From Methylococcales bacterium (GTDB lineage: Bacteria; Pseudomonadota; Gammaproteobacteria; Methylococcales; Methylomonadaceae), in the NCBI GenBank assembly GCA_026398935.1, contig JAPLRW010000227.1, positions 1-35,749 of the forward strand: a DNA stretch of 35,749 nucleotides. The letters run 5' to 3'. Positions 31,151-35,749 of the stretch are shown here, piece by piece; position 1 is the first letter of the stretch, and each line of letters opens with the position of its first letter. A program made the translations under genes and the position numbers. Below the pieces are notes generated by a model. The model searched no databases and was not told the DNA's origin. It saw nothing but the letters and a program-made list of their open reading frames with translations.

Positions 31151-32404
31151 CTACTTAACTAATGGGTGCAAAGCGACGTGTTCGGACTTATCTTCACCGG
31201 GCGCGATCTCCAGTGATAATTTTTCATCGCCATAACCCATTTTTCTGATAATGAGCGAATTACGTCCCGGTGGAATATACGCGCGATTTGTAGGGGTAAC
31301 GCCAATGAAGGCAAGCGCATCATTAGCCAAGACAATAGCGCCTTCCGGTGTTGAATTAATACTGAGGTAGCCTTGTTGCTGTTTTTGCACGACTTTCAAG
31401 GAATCTTGTTTTGCTAGGAATTGTAATAAGCCAATGCCTATTATGATGGCAGTAACACTCGAGCCAGCCAACCACCATCGATTTAAGGTGCCTATCCAAC
31501 GTTTAGTGCTAGGTGGATAAGGCCAGCGTTGTAATAATGCCGACATGCTTTGTGGTCTATCTAAAGATTTTGGCTGTAATATAGCGGTAAATTGTGGTCG
31601 TAACGCTGCCGAGATGTCCCTTAAATCTGGCACTGAGCGACGCGCTTTTTTTGCGGACTCTTCCGAATTACCCATATCCAAGCGTTTGCCGATAATAGCC
31701 TCAGCCAACACCAGTCCGAGGCTATAGAGATCTGAATAGGCACCTACTGTACCGCCGTCAAGTTGTTCTGGCGCTGCGTAAGCATACTTACCCACAAATA
31801 CTGAACCAAAAATGGTTGCATCGGAAGAGGGCTTATGCCATTTTGCGATACCAAAATCAATTAATTTAGCTTCTTCGATTTTACCGTCGTGCAGGATCAC
31901 ATTATCGGGCGATATGTCCCTATGGAAAATGCCTTTAGCATGCGCGGCAGCTAATCCACTCGCCAACCGATTACGCAATTGCCAAAATTGCGTGATGGTC
32001 AGTGGTTTTTGTTTTAAATAGTCTTTAAGGGATGGTCCTTCCACATATTCCATGATCAGACAATGACCGTATTTATCATCTTTCTGAAAACCTTGATAAC
32101 CAACTACGGCATCGTGATGAATACTGAGTAACGCCTCAGCTTCATGTTTGAGTAATGCAATTGATTTATTGTCGGCTTCTGAATGCGTCAGTTCAAAAGC
32201 GTTTGCTAAATTACTGGTGAATTCTGCTTTAATAACCTTAATAACATGTTTAGTATTACTCAGTTCTTTGTGGTGGGTAAGATAGGTTTTTGCCATACCT
32301 CCTGCATCAAGCGGACGATCTACAATATACGTTCCCAGTAGCAACGTTCCTGGTGATATGTCCTGCGTTTTTCGTGGGTCTATTCTAGTTTCTTCGTCGG
32401 TCAT
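31151..32404 (-). CDS. Membrane Ser/Thr protein kinase with C-terminal PEGA-like domain
   Basis: This 417-residue protein has an N-terminal kinase domain (about 20-285): a glycine loop (DAGGMAKTYL), a lysine in HVIKVIKAEF (about 56), and the catalytic loop HRDISPDN at 161-168, where the usual lysine is serine. DFG lies at 183-185 and YAAPEQL follows near 210. One membrane segment lies near 310-331. The outside part (about 345-400) looks like a PEGA domain (LSINSTPEGAIVLAND, then PGRNSLIIRKMGY). It probably senses something in the periplasm. A longer frame begins with TTG at 32443. The ATG at 32404 is chosen, though neither has a good ribosome site. It lies 226 bases past the ABC-like gene. 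Confidence 0.85.
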   Translation of the reverse strand: MTDEETRIDPRKTQDISPGTLLLGTYIVDRPLDAGGMAKTYLTHHKELSNTKHVIKVIKAEFTSNLANAFELTHSEADNKSIALLKHEAEALLSIHHDAVVGYQGFQKDDKYGHCLIMEYVEGPSLKDYLKQKPLTITQFWQLRNRLASGLAAAHAKGIFHRDISPDNVILHDGKIEEAKLIDFGIAKWHKPSSDATIFGSVFVGKYAYAAPEQLDGGTVGAYSDLYSLGLVLAEAIIGKRLDMGNSEESAKKARRSVPDLRDISAALRPQFTAILQPKSLDRPQSMSALLQRWPYPPSTKRWIGTLNRWWLAGSSVTAIIIGIGLLQFLAKQDSLKVVQKQQQGYLSINSTPEGAIVLANDALAFIGVTPTNRAYIPPGRNSLIIRKMGYGDEKLSLEIAPGEDKSEHVALHPLVK

Positions 32405-32630
32405 AAAATTAACGGCGGTGTTGTAGTCTTTAAATTTCCCCAAGCAACATAGGTAACCATAACCGCTAGCTTGGTGCTTAAACGCCGATTATTCAGGATG
32501 TTCAATACGCCCTTTTTCAAGCGACCCTAACCTTGGTAAGCATCAAGCGGTAACGGTCAAAATACGGGTCTGCCCACAGTTAAAAAGTAAGCTACTGGTT
32601 AGCGCTTTAGCATGCTCATATTGGCACCCT

Positions 32631-34319
32631 TTATAATACGATCCGGCGTTTATGAAATGCCTCGGCTAAAGGTTCATTAGTGATCGTCAATATCGCAGAA
32701 TTAGGCAGTTTTTTAGCGATTAATTGCAACATCTTTATTTCGCATAACGAATCCAGAGAGTCCATCGCTTCTTGTAGCAAGATCCATTTTGGTTTTTGCA
32801 ACAATACGCGCACCACGCCTAAACGCTGCTGTTGTTCACGAGAAAGTGCGTTAGCCCAGTTATCATTATGGTCAAGTTGTTCTTGTAAGTCTTCCAAGCT
32901 AACCAGCTCCAACGCCTCAGCCAATTCAGTTTCGGTATAGGCGACTTGGGTTGAGGGGTAGCAGATAGCACTCCGTAATGTTCCTGTGGGCAGATAAGGT
33001 CTCGGGGGCATAAAAAATATGGGATCTTTTGGTAACTCAATGGTTCCTTTTCCCCAGGGCCATAAGCCAACCAACGCTTTGAATGTTTTGGAACCCGTAA
33101 AGGCATTGCCAGTAATCAATACGTGTTCCCCTAATCTGATTTCCTCATTGAGCGCCGACACACACACAACCCCATCTAGTCTGATAATACACAGGTCACA
33201 AAAACGCAAAACATCCTGTTCGGTTTTTTTTAAATGGATTCTATGTGGATCTTGGCGGACAATTTCCTGTTCCAATTTATCCAGTCCATTAACCAGTCCC
33301 AATACCCGTTCAGCTGAAGCGCGCCATTCTGCAACTCTAGCCATATTATCAACTGGCCAAGACAGCGCGCCCGCTGTTTGCTGGAATGCTTGAGCTGATT
33401 GCATTAAAGCGCCCAGCGAAATACTCCCTAAAATATAGCGAGGTGCGGACACCAGAATGGGAAATGCCATAGATAACACCGAATAACCGGATGTCAGCAT
33501 AAATAAATGCGACCAAGTATGCGTTTGTCGTTGCCAAGCGTGAACGATATTTTTAAAAAGCCCAATGAACCGCCGTTGCTCATTGGCTTCACCATGCACC
33601 AGTGCAATTGCCAAAGAGTTTTCTCGTGCAGTGACCAGACCAAACCTGAAATTGGCCTCTACGGTTTGCCGAGCATCCGTAGCTAGCGTAAAAGGTTTGC
33701 CCAGCCACCAGCCCAACGAGGAAGCGCAGGCCGCATAGATGATAGCCAGCCAGACTAAATGCCCACGAATGGAAATATCAAAGAATAGTAGATTAAGCGT
33801 AACCGTGCCAGACAGCGTCCATAGGATTTTAGAAAAACTGATCAGCACCAATGAGCAATAGATCAAGGAATGGCAAAGTTCAATGGCTGATTCTGTTGCA
33901 ATACGAATATCTTCAGCAATTCGTCCATCGGGATTGTCGTGTGTTCCCTGAATATGCGTAACCAAATAATGGCGGCCATCGCTCATCCATTGACCAATCA
34001 GATGGTGTGTTAACCAGCTGCGCCAGTCAAGTTGTAAGCGTCGCTTAACTTTAAAGTGAGCCGTGGTAACGGCTATATTGATTAAAAAAATCAGTATGAT
34101 AAGCGCGACCTGCATAAATAACCCGCTCATTGAGCGTTGTTCCAGTGCATTGAAAAGATCGGCACTCCATTCTGTGATAACCACTGCAACACCAATCTGT
34201 ATGACGGTGAGCATGAATAAAGCCAATGCCAGACTACGAATCGTGGACTTGTTTTCAGAATGCCAAAAAGGGCCTGCTAACCGAATAAATTGAATGAAAA
34301 ATCCGTTTGAAAATTGCAA
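32631..34319 (-). CDS. SbmA/YddA-like ABC protein with degenerate ATPase domain
   Basis: This 562-residue protein has an N-terminal membrane domain (about 1-330, five to six segments) of the ABC_membrane_2 / SbmA-BacA type, followed by an ABC ATPase-like domain. The ATPase motifs are all altered. Walker A is GNAFTGSKT (404-412), with serine in the lysine position. The signature is LSREQQQR, Walker B has Gln516 in place of Asp (LLQEAMDSLD), and Asn548 replaces the switch histidine. The fold seems kept but hydrolysis looks unlikely. The start is a TTG at 34319, decided by a strong GGGAGG site six bases upstream; no suitable ATG exists. Relatives import peptides or vitamins, but the cargo here is unknown. 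Confidence 0.82.
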   Translation of the reverse strand: MQFSNGFFIQFIRLAGPFWHSENKSTIRSLALALFMLTVIQIGVAVVITEWSADLFNALEQRSMSGLFMQVALIILIFLINIAVTTAHFKVKRRLQLDWRSWLTHHLIGQWMSDGRHYLVTHIQGTHDNPDGRIAEDIRIATESAIELCHSLIYCSLVLISFSKILWTLSGTVTLNLLFFDISIRGHLVWLAIIYAACASSLGWWLGKPFTLATDARQTVEANFRFGLVTARENSLAIALVHGEANEQRRFIGLFKNIVHAWQRQTHTWSHLFMLTSGYSVLSMAFPILVSAPRYILGSISLGALMQSAQAFQQTAGALSWPVDNMARVAEWRASAERVLGLVNGLDKLEQEIVRQDPHRIHLKKTEQDVLRFCDLCIIRLDGVVCVSALNEEIRLGEHVLITGNAFTGSKTFKALVGLWPWGKGTIELPKDPIFFMPPRPYLPTGTLRSAICYPSTQVAYTETELAEALELVSLEDLQEQLDHNDNWANALSREQQQRLGVVRVLLQKPKWILLQEAMDSLDSLCEIKMLQLIAKKLPNSAILTITNEPLAEAFHKRRIVL

Positions 34320-34903
34320 GGGGAACCTCCCTATTAGAGTGAAATATAGAATGTTTCAATGCAGGGCTTTTTATTTTTTTAGTGCGCCCCGTATTGGTTT
34401 TGTCGCAACGTTTAGCTAACGGCTGGGAATGCCTAGCGGTTAGCTAAACTATTCTGCTAAAGCTTTAAATTGTTTGTAGCTGGACGTATTTTTAGAACGA
34501 TTGATCCTTACCGGAATCATACGCGCCGGTTTAATTTCATCGATAGTCGCTTTGGCGGAATAGCAAGCGATGGACTCTATCTACGGATGGTTTATTTTTT
34601 ATAAAACCAAGATATTACGGGGAATATTTTCTAGGCCTATGTAATTGGCGTCACTTTTGTCCATAGTGACGTTTATTGGAAGGCGCTTATTATCTATAAT
34701 CTACTTAAATCATGCGGCGGCTCACCACGCTTCTTGAGCGGCATGAGCTCGACAGTCTAGTCAACGCGCGTTATCTGGTGTAGAAAAAACGCGCTAAAAA
34801 CGGCATTCTTTTTAAACTGAGTAGCGTTTAATTTAAAAAGTGTGCATCAACCTATTAGGTAACTACGCTATGGTGATAGCGCCATTTTAAGTCTTGCTTC
34901 ACT
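34320..34903. other. Long intergenic region with decayed element, no gene
   Basis: I see no complete gene. It holds the element remnant at 34396-34800, an imperfect 40-bp palindrome at 34410-34449 (GTTTAGCTAAC and GTTAGCTAAAC as outer arms) and a hairpin at 34649-34671 (CGTCAC/GTGACG). A small stem at 34866-34881 (CGCTAT/ATAGCG) lies just past the pentapeptide-repeat gene and may end it, though no T run follows on that strand. Confidence 0.6.
34396..34800. mobile_element. Decayed insertion-sequence-like remnant, copy B
   Basis: It starts GGTTTTGTCGCAACGTTTAG (34396-34415), close to the end of copy A at 4390. It shares AATTTCATCGATAG (34533-34546) and TATCTGGTGTAGAA (34772-34785) with it, in the same order. 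Copy A is about 137 bases shorter between the last two blocks. On the minus strand a frame ending near 34440 reads ATIDEIKPARMIPVRINR, perhaps the tail of a lost transposase. The family is unresolved; the ends recall IS6. Confidence 0.5.
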
Positions 34904-35749
34904 TTATCGCAATGCAGGTGATGAGGCGTCACAATCTTCCACTGGCGTGAGTTTTTGATTAAAACAGCCAGGGATACCTGTGCTTGTTTGTCCTGCACGC
35001 TCATTATTAGGGCAAATCGTATGTGAATTCCAGATAATAGCTGGATTCTTTGCGATAGACGTAACCCCATTCGTTGACGTCAGTGAAAATTGCGCCCCGC
35101 AAAGGTTAGCATTTTCAAAATTTACGCCATTTAAGTTTGCACCTGTAAATGAGGCAAATCTTAAATTGCCGCTTTGAAATGTTGCATTAGTCAGGTCTGC
35201 ACCATTAAAATCAGCAAAGCTAAAATTTGTGGTCGCGTTAGTGGTGTTCAGTAGGGACGCCGTGACTAAATTCGCATTAGTAAGGTCAAATCCGGACAAA
35301 ACCAGATTATCAAATCGAGCACCTATTGCTTTAATGCCCCGTAAATCACCTGACGCTAAGGCGGTAATGTCGATTCCGGGTCGAGTAAAGTCACAGCCGA
35401 CGAGGTTTTCTCCCGCAGCAGGGTGTAGACAATTGGGACCAAAAGAAGCTGTAGCATTCAAGCTATTGGCATTTTTAGGTATTTGAATAGATGTTTTACA
35501 GGGGGTATTGACAGGTGCCAAGTAATTAATTTCTATATATTTATTGGTACTATAATCCAAAGAAGTAGTAGGAACTGGCGTAGGCGTGAGATCATAGACG
35601 CTAACGGTACAAGGTGTTCCGGTTACACCAGCCGGACCCGTTGCTCCGGTAGCACCTGCTGGGCCTGTTGCCCCAGTCAGACCCGTCGCTCCGGTAGCAC
35701 CTGCTGGGCCTGTTGCCCCAGTCAGACCCGTCGCTCCGGTAGCACCTGC
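34904..35749 (-). CDS. Collagen-like / pentapeptide-repeat protein, 5' end outside window
   Basis: The frame is open to the right edge, so the N-terminus is missing; 281 residues are visible. The first 45 or so are Gly-X-Y triplets of collagen type ([15 protein letters not shown] units). A spacer with a possible TTG restart at 35560 follows. Then comes a right-handed pentapeptide-repeat stretch ([34 protein letters not shown]). The tail contains several cysteines. The Gly-X-Y part suggests a surface or exported fibrous protein, but the signal peptide would be outside the window. Function is unknown. There is no visible link to nitrate use. Confidence 0.8.
35643..35749. repeat. 45-bp tandem repeats coding Gly-X-Y units
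   Basis: Units of 45 bases start at 35643 and 35688 and a third is cut by the edge at 35733; the visible copies are identical. Each codes for 15 residues (five Gly-X-Y triplets). Exact copies point to recent expansion, and copy number probably varies between strains. Confidence 0.9.

Follow-up and report, generated by a model that had tools for sequence, protein, structure and literature searches.

The gene studied here raises the question of how a transporter of ABC descent can be kept in an unbroken reading frame when most of the motif residues of its ATPase have changed, and of what it then does. It lies in the window, i.e. the whole stretch of 35,749 nucleotides of a Methylococcales contig that was analysed, and encodes a protein (Table 1) in which Pfam recognized the membrane families ABC_membrane_2 (PF06472; 124.8 bits, cut-off 24.4) and SbmA_BacA (PF05992; 65.9 bits, cut-off 24), and in which ABC_tran (PF00005) reached only 23.9 bits, below its cut-off of 25. 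Among solved structures, the best match by sequence is M. tuberculosis Rv1819c (6tqe; E 1.4e-63), with ABCD-type proteins next. In the AlphaFold2 model (mean pLDDT 82.8) the NBD is well folded, and with Foldseek this model likewise retrieved Rv1819c (E 3.7e-27) and ABCD1/3 as its top fold matches. With an ABC_membrane_2 domain fused to an NBD and this fold, the protein is thus by descent a type IV ABC protein of the YddA/ABCD-like kind. It shares the TMD-NBD fusion and the fold with YddA/BclA and Rv1819c but, unlike them, belongs to a clade devoid of the Walker A Lys, the Walker B Asp, the Q-loop Gln and the signature Gly.

Table 1. Features of the transporter gene and its product, in window coordinates.
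Feature	Positions	Strand	Basis
NBD-dead YddA/ABCD-type half-transporter, 562 aa, TTG start	32631..34319	-	ORF, Pfam, relatives
Shine-Dalgarno GGGAGGT, 5 nt before TTG	34325..34331	-	read from sequence
Transmembrane domain (TMD), ~residues 24-345	33285..34250	-	Pfam PF06472/PF05992; AlphaFold2 helices
TM2 clade-specific H88, K92, R93	34041..34058	-	clade vs sister residue counts
TM3 series E136 (= SbmA E193), E143, H150, 7-residue spacing	33870..33914	-	counts; model helix 134-170
TM4 E221 (= SbmA E276)	33657..33659	-	E in 150/150
NBD remnant, ~residues 360-562, folded in model	32634..33242	-	PF00005 sub-cut-off; pLDDT mostly 80-94
Walker A remnant GNAFTGSKT, Lys deleted	33084..33110	-	motif alignment
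Q-loop FFMPPRPYLPTGT, Gln to Pro439	32979..33017	-	motif alignment
Signature LSREQQQR (sisters: canonical LSxGEQQR)	32823..32846	-	motif alignment
Walker B/D-loop WILLQEAMDSLD, Asp to Gln516; Glu517 and Asp523 retained	32751..32786	-	motif alignment
Switch position Asn548	32676..32678	-	motif alignment

The earlier note on this DNA had read LSREQQQR, Gln516 and Asn548 in an intact frame, and we confirmed these readings; the other motif stretches are GNAFTGSKT, LLQEAMDSLD and TITNEP. Its statement that every ATPase motif is altered went slightly too far, because Glu517 and the D-loop Asp523 are present, although it holds for the other motifs, to which the Q-loop Pro439 has to be added. It had also placed Ser410 at the position of the Walker A Lys: the loss of the motif stands but not the replacement, since the stretch that starts at the first Gly of the P-loop and ends at the Trp of GLWP counts 17 residues in every one of the 150 clade members and 18 in each of the 21 intact sisters, which indicates that the Lys was deleted rather than swapped. 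Orthologues share these changes across the clade, as deduced from 150 distinct full or partial sequences, mostly from Methylococcales, that exclude duplicates (the window row, L008, L009 and identical rows), the fragments L117 and L247, and the TMD-only proteins L113, L114 and L228. Every one of these rows has a gap where the Walker A Lys would be, and the Q-loop Gln has become Pro in 149 and Ser in the remaining one. The signature Gly is absent from 147 rows, replaced by Glu in 138 of them and by Asp in 7, and is retained in one, the others being gaps. At the Walker B Asp there is Gln in 135 rows, Glu in 13, Arg in one and a gap in one, and at the switch position 86 rows have Asn and 28 have kept the His. 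All these positions, together with the catalytic Glu after Walker B, are canonical in the 21 intact sisters. A sequencing error can be discarded, because the same changes recur in dozens of independent genomes. As read from the sequences, the ATPase function has almost certainly been lost.

Among the residues by which an ATP-hydrolysing ABC transporter is recognized, then, the Lys, Gln, Gly and Asp are missing from the window protein and the clade rows, and the catalytic Glu is retained (in 127/150 rows, and as Glu517 in the window protein). This Glu, and the Lys or Arg found at the shifted P-loop position (Lys411 in the window protein) in 148 of the 150 rows, could be taken as signs of an unorthodox ATPase working through Lys411 and Glu517. 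We consider it very improbable, because the Walker B Asp, the Q-loop Gln and the signature Gly are all lost in the same proteins and because the entire NBD has been lost independently, as described below.

Both domains are nevertheless under strong purifying selection, with the NBD less constrained than the TMD. By pairwise NG86, in which dS was saturated in many pairs, mean omega was 0.053 for the TMD and 0.095 for the NBD over the 55 pairs formed by 11 close relatives, and 0.069 and 0.116, respectively, in the 141 non-independent pairs with dS of 0.05-1 in both domains. Likewise, the mean frequency of the major residue in the dead clade is 0.76 in the TMD and 0.70 in the NBD, against 0.55 and 0.58 in the intact sisters, so that the NBD is the faster-evolving domain in the dead clade and the slower one in the sisters. 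The dN/dS check proposed in the earlier note, with omega of about 0.05-0.07 in the TMD and 0.09-0.12 in the NBD, therefore indicates purifying selection on both domains. That reversal of rates, and a broken copy in genome G025, would fit a pseudogene on its way to being lost by neutral decay; however, almost all family members have open frames of normal length, omega stays within 0.05-0.12 across both domains, and identical substitutions are fixed through 150 sequences. The omega values and the conservation lead us to reject decay for the family, and we give it next to no credence for the gene.

Degenerate halves are common among heterodimeric type IV ABC exporters, e.g. TAP and TM287/288, and on this precedent the window protein could be the degenerate half of a heterodimer whose partner hydrolyses ATP. 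We did not find an intact partner half-transporter in the window genome (G000, 99.99% complete): its only two ABC_membrane_2 proteins, the window protein and a single paralogue of 60% identity (L002), both have dead NBDs, which makes it unlikely that the protein pairs with a live half of the ABCD type. In addition, a search for ABC_membrane_2 in 61 genomes of the family gave matches in 36, with an intact copy only in G007 and G056, and the usual downstream neighbour of the transporter is a glycosidase gene rather than an ABC gene. We thus rejected the heterodimer, whose partner is absent from the genome, and its chances appear minimal.

Relatives were collected through their similarity to the dead protein, and intact ones were sought with a profile (A1), which in a class-level search reported 23 of 274 genomes of the class; of the matches at the level of the order, a part (14 stretches) was taken for motif reading. 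In a tree of 65 rows built on membrane-domain columns, the dead clade, its intermediates and the TMD-only members are together set apart from the other rows by a branch supported at 100/100. The intermediates, L226 and L227, come from another family of the class and have the P-loop Lys deleted but retain the Q-loop Gln, the signature Gly and the catalytic Glu; the Walker B Asp is retained in one of them and the switch His is gone in both. The TMD-only proteins L113, L114 and L228 fall at three separate places and the starred branches of the tree force three changes, so the NBD was lost outright three separate times within the clade. There is no NBD reading frame in the DNA examined downstream of L113 or L114, and the frame of L228 stops at residue 386, where a frame that resembles hisH/hisF in its translation adjoins it. 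A second dead-NBD clade (dead2: L245, L250, L251, L257-L262, L264 and L265, mostly from the Methylococcales family f4) is separate, with support of 100/99, and stands beside intact methanotroph YddA-like proteins. In its 11 members the Q-loop Gln is always Glu, the catalytic Glu is always lost (to Arg in 9), the switch His is lost and the Walker A Lys is retained in 7. Judging from these different substitutions, dead2 would have lost its ATPase independently of the main dead clade.

The losses of the NBD bear also on whether the remnant might sense nucleotides. If the NBD, though unable to hydrolyse, still took up a nucleotide or some other ligand and thereby controlled a passive pore, in a manner resembling CFTR or SUR, this would agree with a domain that is folded in the model, under purifying selection and conserved at Glu517 and in the QQQRLG stretch. 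We deem it unlikely, given that the Walker A Lys and the Q-loop Gln are lost from all 150 rows and the Walker B Asp wherever a residue is present, and that three lineages dropped the NBD and kept the TMD. Together, the changes shared by the clade, the purifying selection, the three NBD losses and the lack of an intact partner uphold the kept non-hydrolytic role put forward in the earlier note, and we regard it as very probable that the transporter is kept and does not hydrolyse ATP.

If not ATP, what drives transport? The TMD of the clade has a distinctive set of charged and polar residues. In TM2, H88, K92 and R93 are each present in 149 of the 150 members, the remaining row being a gap; His at 88 and Arg at 93 occur in none of the 21 intact sisters, and Lys at 92 in ~5%. 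In TM3, E136 and an acidic residue (E or D) at 143 are invariant and H150 is found in 148/150. The residues that the clade has gained, and that are rare in intact sisters, comprise H88, K92, R93, H127, R139, E/D143, H150, Q265, Q310 and Q313; E136 and E221 are frequent in the sisters as well (13/21 and 12/21, respectively). This comparison was also run on 152 rows, with L113 and L114 included, and the clade-specific residues are mostly common to the intermediates and the TMD-only proteins. E136, E143 and H150 are spaced seven residues apart on one helix predicted in the AlphaFold2 model, a spacing that would fit ion coupling rather than demonstrate it.

The accessible text of PMC13316013 gives E193, E203, E269, E276, E287 and E378 as the glutamate ladder of SbmA, and describes YddA as lacking equivalents of E203 and E287. 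The TMD of the window clade belongs to the same family as that of SbmA/BacA (SLiPT), and the equivalents of SbmA E193, R190 and E276 are invariant in it; at that of E378 (position 331), 85 of the 150 rows have Glu, and those of E203, E269 and E287 are absent. SbmA-like proton-driven uptake, as the earlier note suggested, is a possible mode of transport: only part of the ladder is present, although further conserved acidic and His residues occur in the helices that bear it. There is also precedent in LmrA, whose membrane domain, including the NBD-less LmrA-MD, is described as capable of proton-coupled secondary transport in the accessible part of PMC2704374, but there it is a laboratory truncation or a side activity of a functional ABC pump, unlike the naturally dead window clade. 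We rejected membership of SbmA/BacA itself: the NBD is still attached in nearly all members (absent only in L113, L114 and L228), the ladder is incomplete, and the window protein scores 52.2 bits against an SbmA equivalog cut-off of 492. The clade also stands apart from SbmA in the tree, where the SbmA branch is very long, and differs from it in being associated with glucan genes.

The transporter is widespread, with a match at E <= 1e-40 in 95 of 151 sampled genomes of the same family; of 494 stretches that matched, the best 80 were kept, and among their named carriers are Methylobacter tundripaludum, Methylomonas, Methylovulum and Crenothrix. At 69 of 109 loci the next gene downstream, on the same strand and at a median gap of 36 bp, encodes a GH5 protein; 35 loci, the window copy among them, have no adjacent GH5 gene and five stop at the edge of the contig. 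These GH5 proteins resemble fungal exo-beta-1,3-glucanases (8z2w, E 6.2e-64; 1cz1, E 7.3e-54), and in 80 of 86 distinct rows they show the motifs LNEP and GEWS, which we take to contain the two catalytic Glu. Most of them leave no space for a signal peptide. In the 151 family genomes, which were the scope of the GH5 search, transporter and GH5 occur together in 79, the transporter alone in 16, GH5 alone in one and neither in 55; i.e., ignoring relatedness, 79/95 carriers have a GH5, 16/95 have none at all, and only 1/56 non-carriers has one. At locus L117 (G025:C41), a broken transporter gene lies beside a partial GH5 gene, as if the pair had decayed together.

The link extends to the synthase. 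GT2-GH17 proteins are proposed to make cyclic beta-1,3-glucan with their GH17 domain in the periplasm, according to the accessible text of PMC10237404, and the synthase linked here has the same GH17 and GT2 domains as these NdvB/'Orphan' enzymes. As would be expected of a cyclic beta-glucan pathway, it co-occurs with the transporter, in 93 of 95 carriers against 19 of 56 non-carriers among the family genomes, with p-values that ignore relatedness. Outside the family, in a selected subset of the available genomes, it was found in five of six chosen carriers and in none of eight chosen genomes with intact sisters. Two early branches of the dead clade, L252 and L253, have the GT2-GH17 gene just upstream of the transporter, at gaps of 3 and 227 bp, and L252 has in addition a gene for a GH30 protein just downstream on the opposite strand. 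The window genome also contains a GT2-GH17 gene, followed by genes for OpgC and an NTP_transferase, and here the synthase is not adjacent to the transporter. The transporter family thus tracks beta-1,3-glucan genes, an association that is new here and that the earlier note did not see. Its links to synthase and glucanase genes favour a carbohydrate over a peptide substrate, and we accordingly favour less the uptake of peptides or antimicrobial peptides as its main role.

We propose that the protein would be a homodimeric inner-membrane transporter, derived from an ABC protein, that works without ATP hydrolysis and keeps its NBD as a folded cytoplasmic scaffold or gate. Transport would be driven by an ion gradient, most likely of protons, acting on the acidic and His residues of TM2-TM4 as in SbmA, or else would be passive and pulled by hydrolysis in the cytosol; we hold ion coupling and passive movement to be about equally probable. 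A GT2-GH17 (NdvB-type) enzyme would make the periplasmic beta-1,3-glucan, the transporter would take this glucan or its fragments inward, and a cytosolic GH5 exo-beta-1,3-glucanase would then degrade it. We lean slightly towards a substrate related to beta-glucan, and an inward direction, which is favoured by the lack of a signal peptide in GH5, seems plausible at just under an even chance. The whole proposal, of an ABC-derived secondary transporter or facilitator that perhaps retrieves periplasmic beta-glucan, is in our view evenly balanced between true and false.

The opposite direction has also some appeal, since a glucan or its precursor could be moved outward by the ion gradient. In its favour are the close link of the transporter to the glucan synthase and the case of rhizobial NdvA/ChvA, which exports cyclic beta-1,2-glucan. 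On the other hand, GT2-GH17 is proposed to hand its own product to its periplasmic GH17 domain (accessible text of PMC10237404), and a GH5 that in most members leaves no space for a signal peptide fits import better. Export appears rather unlikely, and we retain inward transport as the preferred reading. The terms 'ABC transporter', 'export' and 'OpgC' do not occur in the accessible text of that paper.

SbmA/BacA has been proposed to originate from a YddA-like ABC protein through loss of the NBD (PMC13316013, in its accessible part). That part describes split TMD and NBD genes; it does not contain the word 'degenerate' and does not mention dead-NBD intermediates. The dead clade would provide living intermediates for such an origin, so that a comparison of live sisters, intermediates and NBD-free members could test how another energy source came to take the place of ATP. 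More broadly, and as a tentative composite that we see as possible rather than probable, the clade might preserve a series from ATP-driven to secondary transport, running from live YddA-like sisters through intermediates with a dead P-loop and a kept Q-loop and dead but conserved NBDs to three NBD-free end points; the ionisable TM3 series E136-E143-H150 would have been gained on the same long branch as the loss of the ATPase; the converted transporter and the cytosolic GH5 would make up a previously unrecognised route for recycling periplasmic beta-1,3-glucan in methanotrophs; and dead2 would be a separate case. Such a route would give NdvB-type beta-1,3-glucan a partner in its transport and turnover, and an unknown methanotroph transporter a role that can be tested. 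The distribution of SbmA/BacA/BclA is surveyed in PMC12003926, as seen in its accessible text. Within the open-licence PMC literature we found no paper on a dead-NBD SbmA/YddA/BclA clade or its glucan link, nor work on methanotroph YddA or periplasmic glucan dealing with this clade or link.

The window copy itself departs from its surroundings. The gene is closest to those of genus g15 (Methylobacter-like), with 78-81% DNA identity, against 65-68% to its own genus, whereas the nearby nitrate genes match its own genus with up to 83% DNA identity; relative to the rest of contig C177, this suggests either horizontal transfer or an old paralogue. Given the missing GH5 gene next to it and its closest relationship to g15, the window copy may have changed partner. 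Among other loci only the transporter is widely matched (162 rows), and we found there no conserved link to the Ser/Thr kinase/PEGA, pentapeptide-protein or nitrate ABC genes of the window. The Ser/Thr protein kinase with a PEGA domain lies just downstream of the transporter (31151-32443) and, likewise, has no conserved link to it in relatives. Beside the gene, a stretch of 62 bp (32493-32554) is single-copy in the window genome and matches a repeat scattered many times in genome G109. Upstream, a strong inverted repeat of 18 bp with a loop of 4 nt (34410-34449) is a candidate terminator or operator. Finally, tandem repeats of 9/18/27 nt at 35619-35735, which on the minus strand encode collagen-like Gly-X-Thr repeats when translated by eye, adjoin the gene for the pentapeptide-repeat protein.
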